From contig BNVG01000058.1 in assembly GCA_025997935.1 (NCBI GenBank), positions 1 to 12,091 of the forward strand: 12,091 nt of DNA. Reading direction: 5' to 3'. The stretch is from Synergistales bacterium (GTDB lineage Bacteria; Synergistota; Synergistia; Synergistales; Aminobacteriaceae). The position numbers were made by a program, and so were the translations under genes. Positions 1 to 9,930 of the stretch are shown here, one piece after another. Below the pieces are notes generated by a model that saw only the letters and a list, made by a program, of their open reading frames with translations, did not search any database and had not been told where the DNA came from. The first letter of the stretch is position 1. Each line of letters begins with the position of its first letter.

Positions 1-843
1 CTCGGCGATAAGCGTCTGCATAGGGGTGACAGAAACCTCACCTATGAGCTGCTCCATGCGAAGGAGCGCCGCTGCCGCGTTATTGGCGTGTACTGTCGCC
101 AATCCTCCGGGGTGTCCTGTGTTCCATGACTTTAATAAATCAAGGGCTTCTCCTCCTCTCACTTCTCCGATGATGATTCTGTCCGGTCTGTATCTCATGG
201 CTGTTTTTAATAGCTTTTGCATTGTCACGACGTCAGAGGCCACAAAATTCTGTTTGTTGTCGGTAGCGCATTGAAGCTCAAGAGTATCCTCAATAACAAG
301 GAGCCGATCCTGTGGAGCTATGGACAATAATTCACGTATGAGCGCGTTGACTAATGTAGTCTTTCCTGACGATGTGCCGCCCGCCACTAAGATGTTTTTA
401 GCGTCTCGTATCGCCTCTCTCAGGTAATCGGCGGCTTTTGGCGAGATTCTGCGTTCCTCAACGTACTGTGAAAGAGGAAATATCGCGGAGGCGTGTTTAC
501 GAATACTCATCGAGGGACCGTCAGGTGTCGTAGGTGGTATAGCTCCTTCTATCCTTGAGCCGTCGAGCGGTAATCTTCCTTCAAGTACAGGATTAGATTC
601 ATTCAGTTCCATGCCGCTCATGGCCGCGATGGTGCCTAACGCCGCAATAAGGCTTTGGGAATCTATTGTTTTCTCCGTGTCATAGAGCCGCTTCGTCTTT
701 TCCTCTATCCAGATATGCCCATCCGAGTTCACGCATATTTCAAGCACATCGGGGTTTTCAAGAGCTTCCACTATGTCAGAACCGAGTTCTCTTTTCAGTT
801 TGTAATCTAAACGCTTTAGTTGTTCCGTCGTTTCAAAAGACAT
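1..843 (-). CDS. trbB: TrbB/VirB11-family conjugal transfer secretion ATPase, 3' end missing
   Basis: Hexameric traffic ATPase of a type IV secretion system, acting at the inner-membrane face to power pilus assembly and substrate transfer. The 281 codons seen start at an ATG (843-841) behind a strong GGGAGGTGATT ribosome site (851-861). Visible motifs are Walker A GGTSSGKTT (residues 155-163), an Asp-box-like VIEDTLELQ (183-191), Walker B-like RIIIGEVRGGEALDLL (222-237) and a His box GHPGGLATVHANNA (243-256), in the usual order for the family. RP4 TrbB is about 320 residues, so roughly 40 residues lie beyond the left edge. The protein could also be called CpaF/VirB11-like, but the neighbouring traK, traL, traJ and traI homologues favour TrbB. 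The other trb genes would be expected to follow to the left. Confidence 0.9.
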   Translation of the reverse strand, partial: MSFETTEQLKRLDYKLKRELGSDIVEALENPDVLEICVNSDGHIWIEEKTKRLYDTEKTIDSQSLIAALGTIAAMSGMELNESNPVLEGRLPLDGSRIEGAIPPTTPDGPSMSIRKHASAIFPLSQYVEERRISPKAADYLREAIRDAKNILVAGGTSSGKTTLVNALIRELLSIAPQDRLLVIEDTLELQCATDNKQNFVASDVVTMQKLLKTAMRYRPDRIIIGEVRGGEALDLLKSWNTGHPGGLATVHANNAAAALLRMEQLIGEVSVTPMQTLIAE

Positions 844-2336: not shown

Positions 2337-2957
2337 TCAAATCATGAATATAAAGAGCGCCAAGATAACCAGACCTTGCAACGCTAAAATTCCCTTGTAG
2401 TACAATGACCTTTTAACCTGTTTCCAATGGTCGAAAGCCCACATATAGCTGTAGAGCGAACAGCAAACGAACGCTATCCAACCAGATTGAAGCGTAAGTA
2501 AAATTCCAAGCGGCCCCGTACCGTCGCCGAAATTCAGGACTTTGGCAGAGCCAAGCCAATAAGCCAACGTCGCTATAATACTGATAAAGCAAACAACCAA
2601 GACCTGTCCGCGTAGTTGGTGATACTCATCCCTTGCCTCAAGAACTTCCTTTGCGCCGTCCACTATGTAGTCCCCCATATCGCGCCCTATCTTTTGCGCT
2701 CCGTCGCCAAGGATTCTCTCGATTGATTCCTCAAGCGTACCGTCTATCTTCACGGACAGGGCGGCTATGTCGTTAAATTTTTTGTTCATGGTGTCCTCAT
2801 GGAGCTTGAACACGAGCATGAGATACAGGAAACTCTGTACGTTAGTCATTCCCATAGCGTCAGAGATTTTATAAATATCAAGTTCTTCCTCCTCGCTCAA
2901 TGGCCGTTTCAATACGGTCTCGGCCAGAGCGGACATCTTCTCGTCAAGGTTTGGCAT
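2337..2957 (-). CDS. Small membrane protein in the traM position of a traK-traL-traM operon
   Basis: A 206-residue protein with a soluble, charged N-terminal half (about 1-112; contains LSEEEELDIYKISDAMGMTN and a predicted amphipathic helix around 70-110) and three probable membrane helices at about 116-136, 148-170 and 187-206. The last helix ends almost at the C-terminus (LVILALFIFMI). The ATG at 2957 overlaps the stop of the traL-like gene by one base (TAATG), so translation is coupled. In RP4 the third gene after oriT on this side is traM; I see no residue-level similarity to it, so only the position is shared. The function is unknown; it could anchor the relaxosome or TraL-like ATPase to the membrane. 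Confidence 0.72.
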   Translation of the reverse strand: MPNLDEKMSALAETVLKRPLSEEEELDIYKISDAMGMTNVQSFLYLMLVFKLHEDTMNKKFNDIAALSVKIDGTLEESIERILGDGAQKIGRDMGDYIVDGAKEVLEARDEYHQLRGQVLVVCFISIIATLAYWLGSAKVLNFGDGTGPLGILLTLQSGWIAFVCCSLYSYMWAFDHWKQVKRSLYYKGILALQGLVILALFIFMI

Positions 2958-3721
2958 TATTCATCACCATTGTCGTTTTCATGGGAATCTGCGTTTGAAT
3001 TTACGCCAACGCCAACTTCAAATTCCCCAATGCTATCAAACATCGCGCACACCTGATTGCGCCAAGATAAAAAGCTCTGACCGGCAAACGCGCCGAGAAT
3101 GTCAACTGTTTCGGGAATAGTTCGTCCTCCGGTATAGAACGCATCGGCGATTATGTCAGACAGCGCGGGGAAGTCCAGTATTCCCGATATGCGAGACCTC
3201 AAAAACTTAGACTCGTTGACGTACTTCGCGTAGAGAGTGAAATCGTCAGACTCTCCAAAATAGCAGTTGCGAACCGGATAGACAGAACCGAACGCAACAT
3301 AGTTCAGGAAATCCTCAAGCAGGGCGACTGAATCTTTCTGGCGGTTGATTGGCCATAGCGTGATAAGGTTATATGGAACGGCTCCGCTCTCTAAAATGGC
3401 GGTGAAGTTACGTCCGTTCTTCTTTATCCCCATATTGCTCCGCGCCGCACTATTAATGACAAAGAGCGTGTCATGACTTTGTTCGATGAGGCTTGACATA
3501 AGAATCCAGCCCTTTTCATCGCTATCGAGTATGGCCGTTGTCATGGGGATTTTGCCCTTATACACTCGCCCCACGTCCGGGTTCGATTCGTCAGTTTCGA
3601 TGAGATGTATTGTTTTTGTATCGCCATACTTGTCAATTAAATACTGAACTAACGTGAGTGAAATCATACTTTTGCCAACTCCACCCTTGCCGCCGCCTAC
3701 GTAAAAAATTGTATCCTTCAT
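2957..3721 (-). CDS. traL: TraL-like ParA/MinD-family P-loop ATPase
   Basis: A cytoplasmic nucleotide-binding protein of about 254 residues. The deviant Walker A of the ParA/MinD group is clear near the N-terminus (GGGKGGVGKS), followed by the switch-like IHLIETDESNPDVGRVYKG, where a conserved Asp follows the second strand. The rest matches conjugal TraL proteins in length and outline. The choice of start matters. An ATG at 3727 lies only 2 bases from the AGGGG ribosome site at 3730-3734, whereas the second ATG at 3721 has 8 bases of spacing and is preferred. The gene follows traK by 24 bases and overlaps the next gene by one base. Its role in transfer is auxiliary in IncP plasmids; here it presumably acts with TraK and the membrane protein. 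Confidence 0.82.
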   Translation of the reverse strand: MKDTIFYVGGGKGGVGKSMISLTLVQYLIDKYGDTKTIHLIETDESNPDVGRVYKGKIPMTTAILDSDEKGWILMSSLIEQSHDTLFVINSAARSNMGIKKNGRNFTAILESGAVPYNLITLWPINRQKDSVALLEDFLNYVAFGSVYPVRNCYFGESDDFTLYAKYVNESKFLRSRISGILDFPALSDIIADAFYTGGRTIPETVDILGAFAGQSFLSWRNQVCAMFDSIGEFEVGVGVNSNADSHENDNGDE

Positions 3722-3745
3722 AATCATTTCCCCTTTCGCCCTGTA

Positions 3746-4240
3746 TCAGTCAAAGTCAAAACTTCCGTCCGAGTGCTTGACGATATTCCCAAGCCCTGTG
3801 TTCACCGTTGTACTCGTCAATTTCCGTATCAGCTCCTTGTCCGCCGCTTCGTCGTCTGCCGTCCCTGCTGTAGTCTTTTTGATGGACGTCTCCGCTTTCA
3901 CAAACGGAACGGCGCTCTTTTTCACCGTATCGGAACCGCTCCTCTCAAATATTGGAACCTTGGCATTTTTAACGCCATTGCTCCGCTTGGCTCTCTCACG
4001 CCTAAACGCTTGTCCAAGGCATTGAATATCGGCGTTTTCAGGTAGTAGACCTGATGTCTCAAAAGATTTGCATATCCTGTCGTACCCAATGCCTTTTTCT
4101 CTGAGAGACGCGATTCTCTCAAACGCGGAAGATGCGACTCTCGCGTAACAACGTAAACCCGAAGAACTATACACATCGTCTTCTTCGAGCAATCTGTTTA
4201 CCGCTTCTTCGATAGCTTCACTCCTTTTGTTTATGGCCAT
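3746..4240 (-). CDS. traK: TraK-like oriT-binding relaxosome protein
   Basis: A 164-residue, mostly charged protein. The segment FERIASLREKGIGYDRICKSF to LGQAFRRERAKR (about residues 40-85) has the layout seen in TraK-type conjugal proteins: a repeat-helix DNA-reading module ending in a basic FRRERA stretch. The C-terminal half is low-complexity and lysine/threonine-rich. I place the start at the ATG 4240-4238, because GGGGAGG lies about 11 bases upstream. A longer frame opening with GTG at 4336 has no ribosome site and adds 32 residues of unlikely composition. Known TraK binds intrinsically bent DNA beside oriT; here a phased T-tract array lies 100-260 bases upstream of the gene, which fits. 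It is the first gene of an operon with the TraL-like and membrane proteins. Confidence 0.72.
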   Translation of the reverse strand: MAINKRSEAIEEAVNRLLEEDDVYSSSGLRCYARVASSAFERIASLREKGIGYDRICKSFETSGLLPENADIQCLGQAFRRERAKRSNGVKNAKVPIFERSGSDTVKKSAVPFVKAETSIKKTTAGTADDEAADKELIRKLTSTTVNTGLGNIVKHSDGSFDFD

Positions 4241-4338
4241 ATATCCACTCGCCTCCCCGCATAGAAACATAACATCTGTTTTTGGCGGCGAAGACAAAGA
4301 GGGGTGAGACTGAATGGAACTCTTTCTGATATGCACGT

Positions 4339-4500
4339 GAAGTATTTTGAGTTTTGTTGAATTTTGTTGAATTTTGTTGAGTTTTATCGAATTTTGTTGA
4401 ACTCTACATGAAGTAAATTGAGTTTTTATGAGTTATGTCGAGCCTTACTTGAATTTTCTTGAGTTATTTTAAGACTTCTTGAACTTTGTTGAACTTTAGC
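4339..4500. repeat. Sixteen-unit 10-base phased T-tract array (candidate TraK-binding curved DNA)
   Basis: Units begin with GA and carry a T-tract at the same place: consensus GAATTTTGTT. Unit starts are 4339, 4349, 4359, 4369, 4379, 4389, 4399, 4410, 4420, 4430, 4440, 4451, 4461, 4471, 4481 and 4491. Spacing is 10 bases except for two steps of 11, giving a mean near 10.1. The central units 4349-4398 are nearly identical and the outer ones are degraded. A/T tracts repeated once per helical turn are the classic cause of intrinsic DNA curvature. It lies in the traK leader, and IncP TraK is known to bind a bent region next to oriT, so it is probably that binding site. Confidence 0.8.
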
Positions 4501-4530
4501 GAGACGGATAAAAAGCGAGGGTGTCTTTAA

Positions 4531-4596
4531 GGCAGGACAAGCAGGAGTTTGTCCGACAAAAGGCTTCGCCTTTTCCCGTTCAAACTCCCTGTTGCC
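4531..4596. repeat. Long imperfect hairpin in the oriT region
   Basis: Nested inverted repeats share one centre. The tip is AAAAGGC-TTC-GCCTTTT (4558-4574). Outside it GGAGTTTG (4544-4551) pairs perfectly with CAAACTCC (4581-4588). Further out GGCA (4531-4534) pairs with TGCC (4593-4596). Origins of transfer in MOBP systems usually carry such an inverted repeat near the nick, and it can be recognised by the relaxase accessory protein on single or double strands. The tip alone could also act as a weak terminator. Confidence 0.55.
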
Positions 4597-4654
4597 TCTG
4601 CGAGGTTCCGTAATCGGCGTCCTTTGGACTTCTCTCACGAATAAACTAAGCGAT

Positions 4655-4773
4655 TGATGAAGATCCTAAGCGACCAACACGACGCAAAAAGCGCGTCGGT
4701 TGTCTGCTTATCACTCGGCTGATGAAGCTACTAAGCGACTCACACGGCTCATTCTTCGCCGGTTCACTGCTTA
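4655..4773. repeat. Two tandem 65-base units, each with an imperfect TAAGC...GCTTA hairpin
   Basis: Unit one begins TGATGAAG at 4655 with TAAGCGAC at 4667; unit two begins TGATGAAG at 4720 with TAAGCGAC at 4732, an exact 65-base offset. In each, TAAGC is matched by a GCTTA downstream (4706-4710 and 4769-4773), bounding hairpins of 44 and 42 bases. The inner stem is GACGC/GCGTC in unit one and CGGC/GCCGG in unit two, so the inner pairing differs in sequence yet is kept. A further TAAGCGA lies at 4647. Retained pairing with changed sequence argues that the structure matters. Candidate roles are relaxase or accessory-protein binding, or a structured element active on the entering single strand. 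Confidence 0.6.
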
Positions 4774-4854
4774 TCGCGGGGCTTACGCCTGACGGATAAC
4801 AAGAAAATAAAAACGCGCATGACACAGAGGCATAAAAAAGACCCCGCCAAAGCA

Positions 4855-4898
4855 GAGCCGATTCACTGCTATAAAATTTGAAGAGTCAGATTCGGCTC
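4855..4898 (-). terminator. Terminator-like inverted repeat after the DUF4276 gene
   Basis: GAGCCGA (4855-4861) and TCGGCTC (4892-4898) form a perfect 7-base stem, extendable to 10 with one mismatch. On the minus strand, which is the reading direction of the DUF4276 gene ending at 4906, a run TCTTTTTT follows (4835-4842) about 13 bases after the stem. The loop is long (about 30 bases) and the T-run is detached, so termination efficiency is doubtful. Confidence 0.4.
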
Positions 4899-4905
4899 CA
4901 ACTAT

Positions 4906-5574
4906 TCATGAACAGAGGGTCTCTATACGGTTAAGCCATTTATTGAAAAGCGCGCATTCCCGCCTAATAGCGTCTATTCCTATAGCGCTGGCAGCCAGTA
5001 ATCCGTCGGTCGGTTTTACGTATTTGGGACATAATTGCTCTATCCGCTTGCTTGGCGCGGTCTCGTAATCGTTATTGATACTTTCCGGCGTGGAAAATTG
5101 CTCTCGGATAGAGGCAAACCTCACGGCGAGTTCCGGCTTGTGAATGCCCTGCGCCAACTTTTCAGGGTCGCTGAATAACAATCCCTCAAATTCATACATT
5201 TGAACGTATGGGATAAACCTCAGCATTGGTTCGCTCTCTAATCTCCCTTTAAGCCAATTGGTCAATGAATATTGAACACAGGCGGCTTTCTCGGCTACGC
5301 TTGATTTTTTAGCGGCTTCTTTTTTACCCGGAAAATCTTCGGGCAGCGCGTAAAAATCAAAAAATGTAGTGCAAAATGACGACGTATCCTTGAGAAGCCT
5401 TGCCCTTATGTCGGTAAAGAGCCGTTCAACTTTTATGTTGCCGCCCTTGTGACCGGGCTTGCCGACCAAGGAGGGAACGAGATGAATATCCTTGCTTACG
5501 AACTGTTCGGAGAGCAACTCTTCAATAAAGGTTTCCTCGGTCTGGCCCTCGCAGATAATATAAACGCGCCTCAT
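4906..5574 (-). CDS. DUF4276-family TOPRIM-like protein, partner of the AAA ATPase
   Basis: A 222-residue protein starting MRRVYIICEGQTEE. Features seen are the N-terminal strand with the acidic motif CEGQTEETF (8-16), a second acidic stretch FFDFYALPEDFPG (71-83), the conserved YEFEGLLFSDP (127-137) and a C-terminal IRRECALFNKWLNRIE (203-218). This order is that of DUF4276 proteins, which are thought to share the TOPRIM-like fold of nucleases; the acidic residues would bind metal. The ATG (5574) overlaps the ATPase stop as ATGA, with GGGAGG about 8 bases upstream, so I prefer it to an upstream ATG at 5640 that would lie deep inside the ATPase gene. By analogy with ATPase plus TOPRIM systems such as PARIS and AbiL, it is probably the effector nuclease of an anti-phage pair. 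That role is inferred. Confidence 0.8.
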   Translation of the reverse strand: MRRVYIICEGQTEETFIEELLSEQFVSKDIHLVPSLVGKPGHKGGNIKVERLFTDIRARLLKDTSSFCTTFFDFYALPEDFPGKKEAAKKSSVAEKAACVQYSLTNWLKGRLESEPMLRFIPYVQMYEFEGLLFSDPEKLAQGIHKPELAVRFASIREQFSTPESINNDYETAPSKRIEQLCPKYVKPTDGLLAASAIGIDAIRRECALFNKWLNRIETLCS

Positions 5575-6677
5575 CTCGACGGCCTCCCGCCTAAGACGTT
5601 CTTCTCCCAAAGCTCGCCGGTGGTGTAGTCCTCTAACCATATCTCAAAATCGCTTTGATTTTCACGCCGGAAAGTCGTGGCTCCGTTCACTCGTTCGACA
5701 ACAACAAGGTCATCTATAGAAAACTCGTTTACCAAGTCCACGGACTGCGTGGAAACGATAACCTGCATCCTCGTAGACGCTGACCGCAAGAGAGCGCCCA
5801 ACAGGGTTACAGCGTAAGGATGCAACCCAAGCTCAGGTTCGTCAATGATTATCGTAGACGGAGGATTCGGTTGAAGCAACGCGGTCACAAGACAGATGAA
5901 ACGTACGGAACCGTCCGAAAGCTGGCTGGGCCATAAAACATAATCGCTTCCTGACTGCTTCCACATCAGGTTTATCTGACATTCCCCAGTATCAAGTTCC
6001 CTTGGTTGCAGGACAAAATCGTCAAAGAAAGGTATCGCGAGCCTGACGGTTTCGCAAATTTGCCCGTATGTATCGGGAGCTTCATCAGAGAGTCTGTAAA
6101 GGAAAGCGGCAAGATTTGAGGCGTCCGGTCTTAGGCGTTCATTGTCTTGCAAGGAGGCGTAGCGCTTTACCAACGCAGTCTCGCTCGTGTCGTGAAAATG
6201 AAAAATACTCCAACCGTTGATAGCGTCATAAAAAGGCCGTGCGATAACGCCGTCTTTTTTCTTCTTTAGACTTGTTTTAAGCAGCGATTCTTTGTGTCCG
6301 AGTCCAAATAAAACTTCATGTTTCAAACGAGTTTTTTTGCCGACCAATTCTTCCCTTACAAAAGAAAAACCTCCGTCAACGGTAGTTTCAAGATTGAATT
6401 TGTATGTTCCGGGAGCAAATTCCACTGCCGATTCGACAGAACTTGTCTCTTTTACCCCAAAGCTGACTATCCTGTCAGCGGAGCCGTTTTTCGCCGTCCA
6501 GTGCTGAAGACGCCCATTCACTAACTCTCCGAGCATACGGAAATACGAAATAAAATTACTCTTGCCGGAACCGTTGGAGCCTATAAGGATATTGAGGTTC
6601 CTCAAGGGAAAACTCTCAAGATTTACAATTGACTTGAAACCTTTTATTGTGAGTCGTTCAATGGGTTTTCCGTCCAT
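5571..6677 (-). CDS. AAA_21-type (ABC-like) ATPase, sensor of a two-gene defence-like pair
   Basis: A 368-residue SMC/ABC-like ATPase. In order: IERLTIKGFKSI N-terminal strand, Walker A GSNGSGKS (33-40), an inserted variable region (about 60-240), signature LSDGS (253-257), Walker B IIIDEPELGLHP (276-287) with catalytic Glu, and a switch STQS (309-312), where many relatives have STHS. The start is set at the ATG 6677 because GGGAG lies 7 bases upstream and the promoter at 6729-6758 would fall inside a longer frame opening at 6764. The protein is coupled by ATGA to the DUF4276 gene. Such ATPases paired with TOPRIM-like partners are typical of phage defence (OLD, PARIS, AbiL groups). I cannot place it in a named system. 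Confidence 0.85.
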   Translation of the reverse strand: MDGKPIERLTIKGFKSIVNLESFPLRNLNILIGSNGSGKSNFISYFRMLGELVNGRLQHWTAKNGSADRIVSFGVKETSSVESAVEFAPGTYKFNLETTVDGGFSFVREELVGKKTRLKHEVLFGLGHKESLLKTSLKKKKDGVIARPFYDAINGWSIFHFHDTSETALVKRYASLQDNERLRPDASNLAAFLYRLSDEAPDTYGQICETVRLAIPFFDDFVLQPRELDTGECQINLMWKQSGSDYVLWPSQLSDGSVRFICLVTALLQPNPPSTIIIDEPELGLHPYAVTLLGALLRSASTRMQVIVSTQSVDLVNEFSIDDLVVVERVNGATTFRRENQSDFEIWLEDYTTGELWEKNVLGGRPSR

Positions 6678-6728
6678 TATTTTCTCCCTTGCGTACACGC
6701 CTAATTTAACAAGTCTTTTTACGCTTTT

Positions 6729-6758
6729 ATAGTATCGTTTCGCTTTACTAAAAGTCAA
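6729..6758 (-). promoter_or_regulatory. Sigma-70-like promoter of the AAA/DUF4276 pair
   Basis: On the minus strand TTGACT (6758-6753) and TACTAT (6734-6729) are separated by 18 bases. Each box has five of six consensus bases. A transcript would start near 6722 and reach the ATPase ATG at 6677 after about 45 bases. The pair therefore has its own promoter independent of the tra genes. Confidence 0.6.
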
Positions 6759-6764
6759 CCGCAT

Positions 6765-6904: not shown

Positions 6905-7243
6905 ATGCTCAAACCTATCTTAGAACGGCGAAGCGCGAAAATTACCACAAGATTCACCGATGCTGAGCGCGAGTTTCTCGCAATAGAAGCCGATATATGC
7001 GGATTGTCCCTGTCCTCACTCATCAGGCAACGCAGTCTCGGCAAGCGAGTCTCGGCAAAAGTTGACCTCCGTGTTCTTGCTGAGCTCCGTCGTCTCGGCG
7101 GCTTATTGAAACATATCCATAACGAGACAAAGGGCGCTTACAGCTCGTTCACCAGAGATTGCCTCAAAGAAATGGCCGCCTATATACGTTCCATGAACAG
7201 GCAAATCAACGAAAGCAGAAGTGAAAAGGAACAGCGCTCATGA
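6905..7243 (+). CDS. traJ: TraJ/MobC-type relaxosome accessory protein
   Basis: A 112-residue DNA-binding protein. The N-terminus has a ribbon-helix-helix layout: strand RSAKITTRFTDAEREFL (9-25), helix AIEADICGLSLSSLIRQRSLG (26-46). A MobC-like segment LAELRRLGGLLKHIHNE (59-75) follows; relatives usually read RLGNNLNQIA there. It would bind oriT and position the relaxase at the nick. Its stop and the relaxase start overlap as ATGA (7240-7243), so the two are made together. A strong AAGGGAGGGGG ribosome site precedes the ATG. Function is inferred from fold, size and position directly upstream of the relaxase, as traJ is in RP4. Confidence 0.8.
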   Translation: MLKPILERRSAKITTRFTDAEREFLAIEADICGLSLSSLIRQRSLGKRVSAKVDLRVLAELRRLGGLLKHIHNETKGAYSSFTRDCLKEMAAYIRSMNRQINESRSEKEQRS

Positions 7244-9930
7244 TAGGTAAAATCCCCAACAAACGGCGCGACGGCAAAAGCTCTTTTCAAGACCTCGTTT
7301 CCTATTGTACTGAAAAAGACCCGACAAAGATACTTCACGTCAGGTATCAGAACGTAATATCTAAGGAAACGGCGGCCATTGAAATGGAAGCCCTCGCCAC
7401 GGACAACACCAGATGCAAAGACCCCGTGTTTCACGCTATCCTCGCGTGGCGCGAAATGGAAATACCGACAAATGAACAGGTTGATAAAGCCGTTCAGATA
7501 GCTTTGAAAGAATTAGACCTGCAAGGCTGCCAAGCTCTCTGGTCTCTTCAAAGCGATACGCAGAACAGGCACGTTCATATCGTAGTCAATAGAATAGACC
7601 CCGAAACCGGCAAGGCTATAATCCCGGCCAATGGCTGGACATACAAGGCACTTGAAAGAGCGGCGCGAAAGATAGAGCTTGCTCAGGGATGGGAAAGCGA
7701 ACAGAGCGGATTTTACAGCGTCACCGATGACGGGAAAATCATAGAGAAGTCCAAAAGAGAAAAACCGGCCATTTCCACGTCAGCCAAGGACGGCGAAGCT
7801 CACACCGCAATAAAGAGCGCCGAGCGTATCGCTCAGGAGGTTGCCGCTCCAATACTCAATTCGGCAAAAAGCTGGGGAGAACTACATGAAAAACTTGCTG
7901 AACATGGAATCTCTTTTGAGGCTAAAGGCAGCGGAGCTGTCCTTCATATCGGAAAGGTCATTATCAAAGCGTCAAAGGCGTCGAGGGATACCAGTATGTC
8001 CAAACTCACCGCCAGACTCGGAGATTACATTTCAAGACCGGAGGGAACGGTAATTGCAGACCGAAAAACAGAACCCGTTGAAAGAGCATCGAAGGATAGC
8101 GTCAAGAGCGATTGGGAGCGTTTCGTAACCGAGAGGGAAACATACTTCCAAGACAAAAAAGAGGGGAAAACTTACCTTATCAAGCGTCACAAGGAAGAAC
8201 GCTCTCGGTTGCAGACGCAGCAAAAAGCCGAGCGAAACGGCGCGCTTGCCGGTTCATGGAAAGGTCGGGGCGCAATCCTCAATCGGACGCGCAGCCTAAT
8301 GGCGGCGAAACAACAAATCGAAAAACTCAATCTCGCGGACAGGCAAAAGAAAGAATTGGACGAGTTTAAGCGAAAGTATCCCCATTGTTTTGTCAACTTC
8401 AAAACATGGTTGGAACAGGAAAAAGACCAAAAGGCGTTTCTTTCTTTCAGGTATCCGGCTCAGAGGACTATTCACGGAAACGAAACATTGACGGATAAGG
8501 CTACAATAAACGCCGATCTTCGAGCCTTCACGCTCAAAATCGGCAACAAGGGCGGTGTGGCCTATTCAAGAACAAACGCAAAAGAAGCGGACTTTATAGA
8601 CTATGGCAGAAAAATAATCCTTTCCGATAAATGCGATGAAGCGGCCATACTCGCCGCCTTACAGCTCGCCAACCAGAAATGGGGAGGCGCGATTATCAAC
8701 GGCACAGACGAATACAAACGTAAGTGCGTTGAAATCGCCGCCAAACATAGGCTTAAAATCTCAAACCCCGAGCTTGCGATAAAAGCAAGCAAGACAAGTC
8801 AAGAAAAAGACGAAAAGAAACGCATTTTCAGTCAGTACGACGACGCCGTTGGAGCTGAAAGATTCCGTATCACCGTTACGGAGTTTACCGAAAACGGAAC
8901 GCGGGCATTCATACACGACAAACAAAACGGCGGCTATGAGGGCAAAACAAGAGATGAAATATTGGAGGCTATTCCTAAATTCTCTATATACACCCACTAC
9001 AAAAAGAACATCATCGTCACGCCTATGAGCCGCGACAAACATCATATACTCATTGACGACCTTACATCTGAGAAACTGAAACAATTCAAAGACGACGGAT
9101 ATTCCCCAGCCTGTGTAATAGAGTCCAGTCCTGAGAATTATCAGGTTATCATCACTGTTCCGAGCATAGAGGGAGACTCACAGAAAGACCACGAGGCAGC
9201 GAACAGAATCACTAAAGAGCTAAACCTGAAATACAGAGACCCGAAACTCTCAGGCTTAATACACGGACATAGACTGCCGCCGTTCGGGAATTACAAGCCA
9301 AAACACAAACGTGATGACGGGACATATCCCGATACGGTCTTAATCGAGGCAAACGAAGGTATATGCGAAAAAGCTAAACAGGAGCTTGAGACCGTACACC
9401 ACAACACTAAAGCTACCGAGCAACGAATGGAAACCGAGAAACAGGCACGTCAGGATACAAGGACAGGAATAATGGCAGGGACTGAGAATCGGAAGCAGTA
9501 TATGCGAAGTCATAATACCGGCGCAAACGACCCAAACGGCGCGTATTGGACGCACTACCGAGACATTGCGACGAAGTTTATAGGAGCAATGGACTACTCA
9601 CGCATCGACGCCATGATAGGTGTCCGAATGAGAGCCACAGACTACACACAGGACGCCGTGGAGAGCGCCATAGAAGAAAACGCTCCGGCCATGCGCAGGG
9701 AAACAATGAACGAAGCTGACTTTTCAGCTAAGTATCACAACAGAGATTGGCGAAGGTATGCCATAGAGACAACGGAGAAATACGTCTTCGGAGCCAGAGG
9801 CGCGGTTCAGTTTGAAAAAGCATTGGATTACAGACCGCTCTATATGCGTCTTGAAGGACGTAATGCGTCCAAGGAACAAGGGGTCGAATATGAGCGTGTT
9901 CGGCAGGAAAAACAGAGCAGAGGAAGGTGA
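7240..9930 (+). CDS. traI: TraI-type MOBP relaxase fused to LPD7 and a RepB-like primase
   Basis: An 896-residue protein that nicks oriT, pilots the strand and probably primes its replication. Residues 1-270 are the relaxase. Tyr22 (DLVSYCTEK) matches the catalytic Tyr22 of RP4 TraI, and the metal-binding motif is HVHIVVN (111-117). Motif II, FHAILAW (64-70), has Ala69 where RP4 TraI has Ser74. Residues about 270-390 are charged and probably helical. About 395-515 match the LPD7 domain (DYGRKI, LQLANQKWG, NPEL). About 535-715 resemble RepB-type primase, with HHILIDDL (601-608), whose two Asp are likely catalytic, VIESSPENYQ (626-635) and GHRLPPFGNYKPK (676-688). Residues 765-870 (HYRDIA, DYSRIDAMIGVRMR, DWRRYA) fit the C-terminal primase helices. 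It overlaps the traJ-like gene by 4 bases. The stop lies within the ribosome site of the next gene. Confidence 0.9.
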   Translation: MIGKIPNKRRDGKSSFQDLVSYCTEKDPTKILHVRYQNVISKETAAIEMEALATDNTRCKDPVFHAILAWREMEIPTNEQVDKAVQIALKELDLQGCQALWSLQSDTQNRHVHIVVNRIDPETGKAIIPANGWTYKALERAARKIELAQGWESEQSGFYSVTDDGKIIEKSKREKPAISTSAKDGEAHTAIKSAERIAQEVAAPILNSAKSWGELHEKLAEHGISFEAKGSGAVLHIGKVIIKASKASRDTSMSKLTARLGDYISRPEGTVIADRKTEPVERASKDSVKSDWERFVTERETYFQDKKEGKTYLIKRHKEERSRLQTQQKAERNGALAGSWKGRGAILNRTRSLMAAKQQIEKLNLADRQKKELDEFKRKYPHCFVNFKTWLEQEKDQKAFLSFRYPAQRTIHGNETLTDKATINADLRAFTLKIGNKGGVAYSRTNAKEADFIDYGRKIILSDKCDEAAILAALQLANQKWGGAIINGTDEYKRKCVEIAAKHRLKISNPELAIKASKTSQEKDEKKRIFSQYDDAVGAERFRITVTEFTENGTRAFIHDKQNGGYEGKTRDEILEAIPKFSIYTHYKKNIIVTPMSRDKHHILIDDLTSEKLKQFKDDGYSPACVIESSPENYQVIITVPSIEGDSQKDHEAANRITKELNLKYRDPKLSGLIHGHRLPPFGNYKPKHKRDDGTYPDTVLIEANEGICEKAKQELETVHHNTKATEQRMETEKQARQDTRTGIMAGTENRKQYMRSHNTGANDPNGAYWTHYRDIATKFIGAMDYSRIDAMIGVRMRATDYTQDAVESAIEENAPAMRRETMNEADFSAKYHNRDWRRYAIETTEKYVFGARGAVQFEKALDYRPLYMRLEGRNASKEQGVEYERVRQEKQSRGR

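Follow-up and report, generated by a model that had tools for sequence, protein, structure and literature searches.

We analysed a 12,091-nucleotide window, the whole of contig BNVG01000058.1 (C58) in a 2.25-Mb, 70.5% complete assembly of a Synergistales bacterium (GCA_025997935.1), which carries an array of 16 short direct repeats (4339–4500, minus strand) between a traK-like gene and a conserved block resembling an origin of transfer (oriT). The traK-like gene (3746–4240, minus strand) encodes a 164-residue protein. It is followed by a traL-like gene (2957–3727, minus strand), which encodes a ParA-type ATPase with a KGGVGKS motif and relatives among MobD and TraL proteins, and by a third operon gene (2337–2957, minus strand), placed in the traM position by gene order, whose product matched no family in Pfam or NCBIfam. 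Judged from its sequence and place, the array is most likely the stretch on which the element's own TraK docks, and we consider it probable that it serves the TraK–TraL–TraM module of a conjugative element as an operator or centromere-like site, comparable in kind to the StbA stbDRs of plasmid R388.

The array spans 162 bases, and was delineated by self-identity and by an unsupervised unit model (expectation–maximization, EM) in which steps of 9 to 12 bases were allowed. In the sense of traK, its unit reads AaAatTCAAn with a period of 10 bases; the register chosen by the model (4336–4497) is the same array, shifted. The steps comprise 13 of 10 bases and two of 11 bases (mean 10.13), and the model score of 147.6, compared with 56.1 ± 6.8 for shuffled sequences (z = 13), was equalled by none of 99 shuffles, nor by any in a set of 19. 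The extent, unit number and near-constant period given in the original prediction, made by a model from the letters alone, are thereby borne out. Self-identity reaches 0.59, 0.54 and 0.51 at lags of 10, 20 and 30 bases; elsewhere in the range of lags 5–39 it lies between 0.22 and 0.40, lag 31 (0.50) excepted. The Fourier power of the array (6.04 versus 2.72 ± 0.66) was matched by none of 200 shuffles, and Tandem Repeats Finder breaks the array into four rows with periods of 10, 41, 31 and 10. An 18-base, two-unit probe with at most three mismatches detected no second array in the assembly: seven of its ten matches fall inside the array, and the remaining three are single matches elsewhere with three mismatches each.

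The units are not uniform. The sequence GAATTTTGTT, which had been put forward as the recurring unit, is merely the commonest one; in the traK sense, T at position 5 occurs in all 16 units, C at position 6 in 15 and A at position 7 in 14. The best-conserved part is thus TCA (its complement in the sequence as originally read), and the T-tract is kept less well, with AAAA at positions 0–3 in 7 of the 16 units and TC in 15.

The oriT-like block (4530–4645, minus strand) sits on the side of the array distal to traK, and the array ends 95 bases before the traK start. The block contains hairpin arms at 4544–4551 and 4581–4588, TGCTTGTCC at 4535–4543 and CGCCGATT at 4612–4619; folding, which was performed for the window only, gave the hairpin a z-score of −4.8. 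We aligned the block from 11 of the 17 TraK loci described below (all except L025, L026, L028, L030, L053 and L054; L numbers denote compared loci, and G and C numbers genomes and contigs). In this alignment CGCCGATT is identical in 11 of 11 loci, and TGCTTGTCC or a near variant follows the second arm of the inverted repeat. The nic-like motif TGCYTGYCC was found within 400 bases before traK in nine of the 13 loci searched, at 37 bases from the array start in the window and at 16–40 bases in the other eight. The repeat, conservation and place of the block suggest that it is the oriT. As in the StbA/TraK family of oriT operators, helically spaced direct repeats thus lie between the oriT-like block and the first gene. 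Folding and repeat analysis also revealed a second palindrome beside the block (4660–4710, assigned to neither strand). This palindrome may be a dispersed repeat, because part of 4651–4700 recurs on three other contigs of the same genome (C53, C119 and C146); a genome pattern search for the palindrome gave no match, with a pattern that was probably too strict.

The TraK-like protein consists of an N-terminal helical domain, a linker modelled with low confidence (residues 94–127) and a conserved C-terminal tail ending in DGSFDFD. The best structural match of its model is the StbA DNA-binding domain (7pc1, VIA-align), and the match is moderate; the N-terminal domain is accordingly predicted to adopt the StbA DNA-binding fold. 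Foldseek alone gave no match to the model below an E-value of 0.7 among the best 50 of 216. Profile–profile alignment (hhalign) with StbA/TraK/MobC gave an E-value of 7.8e-5 and a probability of 61.5 over a short alignment of 47 columns. The NCBIfam family StbA_2 reaches 14.1 bits, against a cut-off of 100, and matches two of the 17 members of the relative set (best E-value 0.0068). The protein belongs to no accepted family in Pfam or NCBIfam, and sequence searches of the PDB with a TraK profile returned weak, unrelated matches only. The TraL-like protein scores 24.9 bits with NCBIfam TraL (PRK13886), below the cut-off of 360, and its closest named plasmid relatives among the matches listed are MobD-type proteins (34–36% identity). 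Searches of genome contigs with TraL identified three loci, in genomes labelled Synergistaceae or Synergistales; a TraK query against genome contigs and a TraL query against viral contigs gave no match.

The relative set comprises 17 aligned TraK proteins, including that of the window (the contigs of L023 and L024 recur as L049 and L051, so each pair enters the count a single time). The other 16 proteins share 18–46% identity with the window's TraK over the full length and 21–48% over the N-terminal domain. The unit model detected an array at traK in 12 of the 17 loci (none of 19 shuffles equal, z ≥ 4.5), and in 11 of them, namely the window, L013, L024, L027, L028, L029, L050, L052, L055, L056 and L057, the array lies upstream of traK. 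Nine of these (the window, L013, L027–L029, L050 and L055–L057) were also recovered in the Fourier test, with 0 of 200 shuffles equal; L024 (15 of 200), L052 (12 of 200) and L030, which has a 5-base unit (200 of 200), were missed. The units differ between lineages: in the traK sense they read CTCAg in L013, L024 and L050, TCACaca in L052, GGACAa in L027, TTACCACAAa in L028 and GCTTAGCTTA in L030, and are of a GG[TC]C type with mean steps of 10.3–10.5 in L029 and L055–L057. Overall, seven units in the group are clearly distinct, and two more are weaker candidates. Related elements therefore carry arrays of about the same period and different sequence, a point that the original prediction had proposed to check. 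Replication slippage, neutral and without any protein partner, might leave an array like the perfect 13-unit, 10-base one of L028, as after a recent event. Such an origin is nonetheless highly improbable for the window array: its units keep a conserved core between drifting flanks, and many relatives have different units of about the same period at the same position. The L028 array (G007:C60, 8667–9117) lies inside an open frame that runs into traK and begins in a stretch resembling, by eye, a primase zinc finger.

The remaining loci are less clear. The L023 array is weak (none of 19 shuffles at z = 2.8, but 4 of 99). The unit model does not support an array in L025 (2 of 19 and 56 of 99 shuffles equal); five CTCA units are visible there by eye. 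In L026, L053 and L054, where traK, traL, traJ and traI all run in one direction, there is no array before traK (15, 13 and 3 of 19 shuffles equal), and the top-scoring stretch of a scan is the traL–traJ gap (none of 99 shuffles equal; z = 4.0, 3.4 and 2.4, respectively). These gap patterns are weak evidence, because they were picked from 63, 48 and 48 stretches. In L030, the array (4482–4581), with GCTTA units that set a 5-base unit in a 10-base register, overlaps the end of traK and lies between traK and traL instead of upstream; this stretch was chosen post hoc, with the array already seen. The distant Synergistota TraL loci L031, L033 and L034 have no array by the unit model or the Fourier test; L032, a second copy in the genome of L031, was left out of the array test, and no traK match was found in L058 and L059.

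The place of the arrays bears on the idea that they are chiefly autoregulatory operators of the traKLM promoter, with effects on transfer being secondary. The array is directly upstream of traK in 11 of the 17 loci, and the R388 stbDRs flank the stbABC promoter, as described in PMC3098194. We nevertheless regard a chiefly autoregulatory function as unlikely: 162 bases and 16 units exceed the needs of a simple operator, the array of L030 lies between traK and traL, the candidate patterns of L026, L053 and L054 lie in the traL–traJ gap, and a scan of 4230–4910, which covers the sigma-70-like type only, found no such promoter.

We applied the same tests to loci of known plasmids, which were selected and not drawn at random: eight for StbA out of 244 records and 14 of IncP type out of 298, each set taken from 40 listed, together with L060. 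By the unit model, R388 and six other StbA loci had no equal among 19 shuffles and L064 had one; these arrays have mostly 11-base steps and a GCA core. In the Fourier test, R388, L066 and L075 were equalled by 0, 2 and 1 of 200 shuffles, respectively. The IncP-type TraK sites showed a helical period in 13 of 14 cases (at most 3 of 199 shuffles), or in eight of nine groups after near-identical copies were merged, while 16 of 500 background stretches from eight loci passed the same threshold; the IncP part of this background is small (L060, 0 of 21). Fixed 220-base background tiles that cut arrays were equalled by 30 and 12 of 199 shuffles in the window, by 21 and 84 at L060 and by 25, 98 and 2 at L026. 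By the unit model, four of the seven IncP-type sites tested had no equal among 19 shuffles and three did; the clearest was that of p138R (L070, z = 6.5). The p138R site, upstream of traK, contains a half-readable unit around T.CA and is a possible bridge between RP4-type sites and readable arrays. The RP4-like site on pWEC911 shows a helical period (P 10.15; 0 of 199 shuffles) and no readable unit (EM z = 3.9). The window array, at the place of the TraK site, is thus regular where the RP4-type site cannot be read, in line with the original prediction. In the MobC-type loci L035–L037, the unit model detected no array before the first gene; L036 (Methylocystis) gave a Fourier signal (4 of 200 shuffles).

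The original prediction also held that phased T-tracts strongly bend the DNA. We compared predicted curvature, using Bolshoy and Olson parameters, with 100 shuffles of each sequence; a phased A6 control was more curved than all 100 of its own shuffles in both models. The window array does not stand clearly above composition-matched shuffles, 72 of 100 matching or exceeding its curvature with Bolshoy and 6 of 100, a borderline value, with Olson, and strong bending was thus not supported. The perfect L028 array was likewise not above its shuffles (100 of 100 and 21 of 100, respectively). With Bolshoy, 6–100 of 100 shuffles reach the 12 arrays of the group and none stands out. The sites of R388, RP4-like, p138R and pLAO80 are reached by 0 or 1 of 100 shuffles in both models. 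We therefore conclude that the helical period is common to the group. For the window array the models predict no strong curvature, and for its relatives the outcome varies with the model. That the array is an intrinsically bent segment, in which once-per-turn T-tracts curve the DNA and TraK recognizes or wraps the bend rather than the base sequence, would agree with the AATTTT-type tracts of several units, with the curvature of the four plasmid sites, and with the RP4 TraK site, which Ziegelin et al. reportedly described as bent in 1992. Besides the shuffles, TC is present in 15 units as against 7 with AAAA, some related arrays contain 54–60% G+C, and in roll models phased units of any sequence yield some curvature; this reading is accordingly improbable. 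Two results weigh somewhat against a sequence-read operator of the StbA kind: with Olson, six of the 12 group arrays (L013, L027, L029, L050, L056 and L057) are reached by only 0–4 of 100 shuffles, which speaks for a weaker bend, and the Fourier signal is weaker in five StbA loci (L063, L064, L065, L067 and L074 were equalled by 8, 14, 48, 136 and 80 of 200 shuffles, respectively).

With the operator or centromere-like reading preferred, a mechanism can be proposed. One helix-turn-helix domain of TraK would read the core of each unit, TCA in the traK sense, in one major groove. Because the units recur every 10 bases, TraK molecules would line up next to one another along a single face of the DNA. 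The suggested idea of a one-per-turn ruler fits. The row of TraK would form a continuous nucleoprotein stretch, some tens of bases away from the presumed nic, and its C-terminal tails may recruit the ParA-like TraL, thereby linking the transfer origin with positioning or segregation as well as with relaxosome control. TraK on the array might also regulate traKLM. By analogy with R388 StbA, a double role in transfer and stability would be expected.

The diversity of the units raises the question of how they are read. Of 19 arrays, 15 have CA in the traK or stbA sense at a constant phase in half or more of their units, as compared with eight for GC and six for TG, the opposite-strand reading of CA; the exceptions are L030 and L055–L057, with L056 and L057 having TG instead. 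This shared core is a lead only, because the arrays cannot be counted as independent and it was the model that chose the units. By eye, the groups formed by the start of the presumed TraK recognition helix (after residue 70) largely match the array types, in a comparison that includes the weak assignments of L023, L025, L026, L053 and L054. A helix start of HS.SQ goes with CTCA units (L013, L024, L050 and, weakly, L025), PYCFRQ with ATC-type units (L026 and, weakly, L023), PYSLRA with GAC-type units (L053 and L054) and F.R with GGYC units (L029 and L055–L057), and the window, L052, L027 and L028 each combine an individual helix start with an individual unit. The L025 TraK is 48% identical to that of the window versus 40% to the CTCA group, yet has the CTCA-type helix. 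Shared descent partly explains the match, because group members are mostly close relatives. It is conceivable, though on balance doubtful, that TraK/StbA proteins and their arrays at oriT make up an address code that evolves freely, in which the period is fixed by protein assembly and the unit sequence follows the residues at the helix start, so that related elements share a cell without cross-binding; the 'bent' TraK site of RP4 would then be a worn array, its bending secondary. L030, with an F.R helix start yet a GCTTA unit, breaks the grouping and weighs against such a code. Genome G149 has six TraL matches (L049, L050, L053, L054, L057 and L059), one of them partial, and combines a CTCA array (L050), weak GAC-type patterns (L053 and L054) and a GGYC array (L057), with the caveat of an estimated contamination of 7% and one contig that is also found, in identical form, in a metagenome-assembled genome; several array types in one genome would fit an address function. 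The group thus offers a natural set of protein–DNA pairs for asking how a spacing of one unit per turn and the sequence of the unit are recognized, whether bending plays a part, and whether the array type decides coexistence or joint mobilization.

Beyond the oriT-like block, the window encodes a TraJ/NikA-like relaxosome accessory protein (6905–7243, plus strand; family match) and a TraI-type MOBP relaxase (7240–9930, plus strand), a single 896-residue protein in which the relaxase is fused to TraI_middle, LPD7 and RepB-type primase domains. The RepB-primase fusion would suit a reading in which the repeats act as the iterons of an origin of replication and bind its initiator; iterons commonly form helically phased tandem arrays. 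No iteron-binding initiator was recognized by Pfam among ten window proteins, however, and in relatives the array goes together with traK and the oriT-like block, which makes an iteron function very unlikely. A VirB11-like ATPase gene (T2SSE family match; 1–843, minus strand), truncated by the contig end, suggests that the element is conjugative. The order traK–traL–traM, together with the VirB11-like and NikA-like proteins and the MOBP relaxase, is the operon arrangement of the StbA/TraK oriT-operator family. Between the oriT-like block and traJ lies a DUF4276 and AAA ATPase gene pair (4906–6764, minus strand), identified by PADLOC with HEC-01B (4.5e-78) and HEC-01A (1.8e-138) as best matches, which is outside the array system. 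The same genome contains a second traK–traL–traJ–traI set, L026 (G000:C5, 4401–8493), and the gene upstream of it resembles, as read by eye, a DnaB-type helicase.

Among known systems, ParR–parC and other partition centromeres use iterated sites at helical spacing to nucleate protein assembly. The parallel is a functional one, and the window element has a ParA-like motor rather than ParM. The titles and opening parts of abstracts returned by literature searches mention neither 10-base arrays upstream of traK nor TraK arrays in Synergistota. MobC–MobD operons of IncQ-2 and related plasmids resemble the window in that its TraL is nearest to MobD-type proteins; unlike in the window, the unit model finds no array at pLAtc1 (typed IncQ2), the Comamonas mobC–mobD locus or the Methylocystis locus. 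RP4 shares the arrangement of traK–traL–traM beside oriT with TraJ and TraI on the opposite side, and its TraK binding site lies between nic and traK, according to PMC3098194. In contrast to the plain arrays of the window's group, the RP4-like site has a helical period without a readable unit and is predicted to be curved, and the window TraL is far below the cut-off for NCBIfam TraL. The closest parallel in kind is the R388 StbA–stbDR system. Both encode, beside the oriT or oriT-like block, a small DNA-binding protein together with a ParA-like ATPase and a further protein, and have direct repeats at helical spacing around or near the promoter or upstream region of the first gene. According to PMC3098194, the R388 stbDRs, located around the stbABC promoter, consist of two sets of five 9-base TTGCATCAT repeats spaced by 2 bases (an 11-base period); StbA acts through these repeats, deletion of stbA increases transfer about 50-fold and renders the plasmid unstable, and deletion of stbB abolishes transfer. 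The relaxase of R388 is of the MOBF type. The window array, with 16 contiguous 10-base units of another sequence (AaAatTCAAn, 13 steps of 10 and two of 11) and a MOBP relaxase, is therefore not an instance of the R388 stbDRs proper, but probably a site of the same kind.
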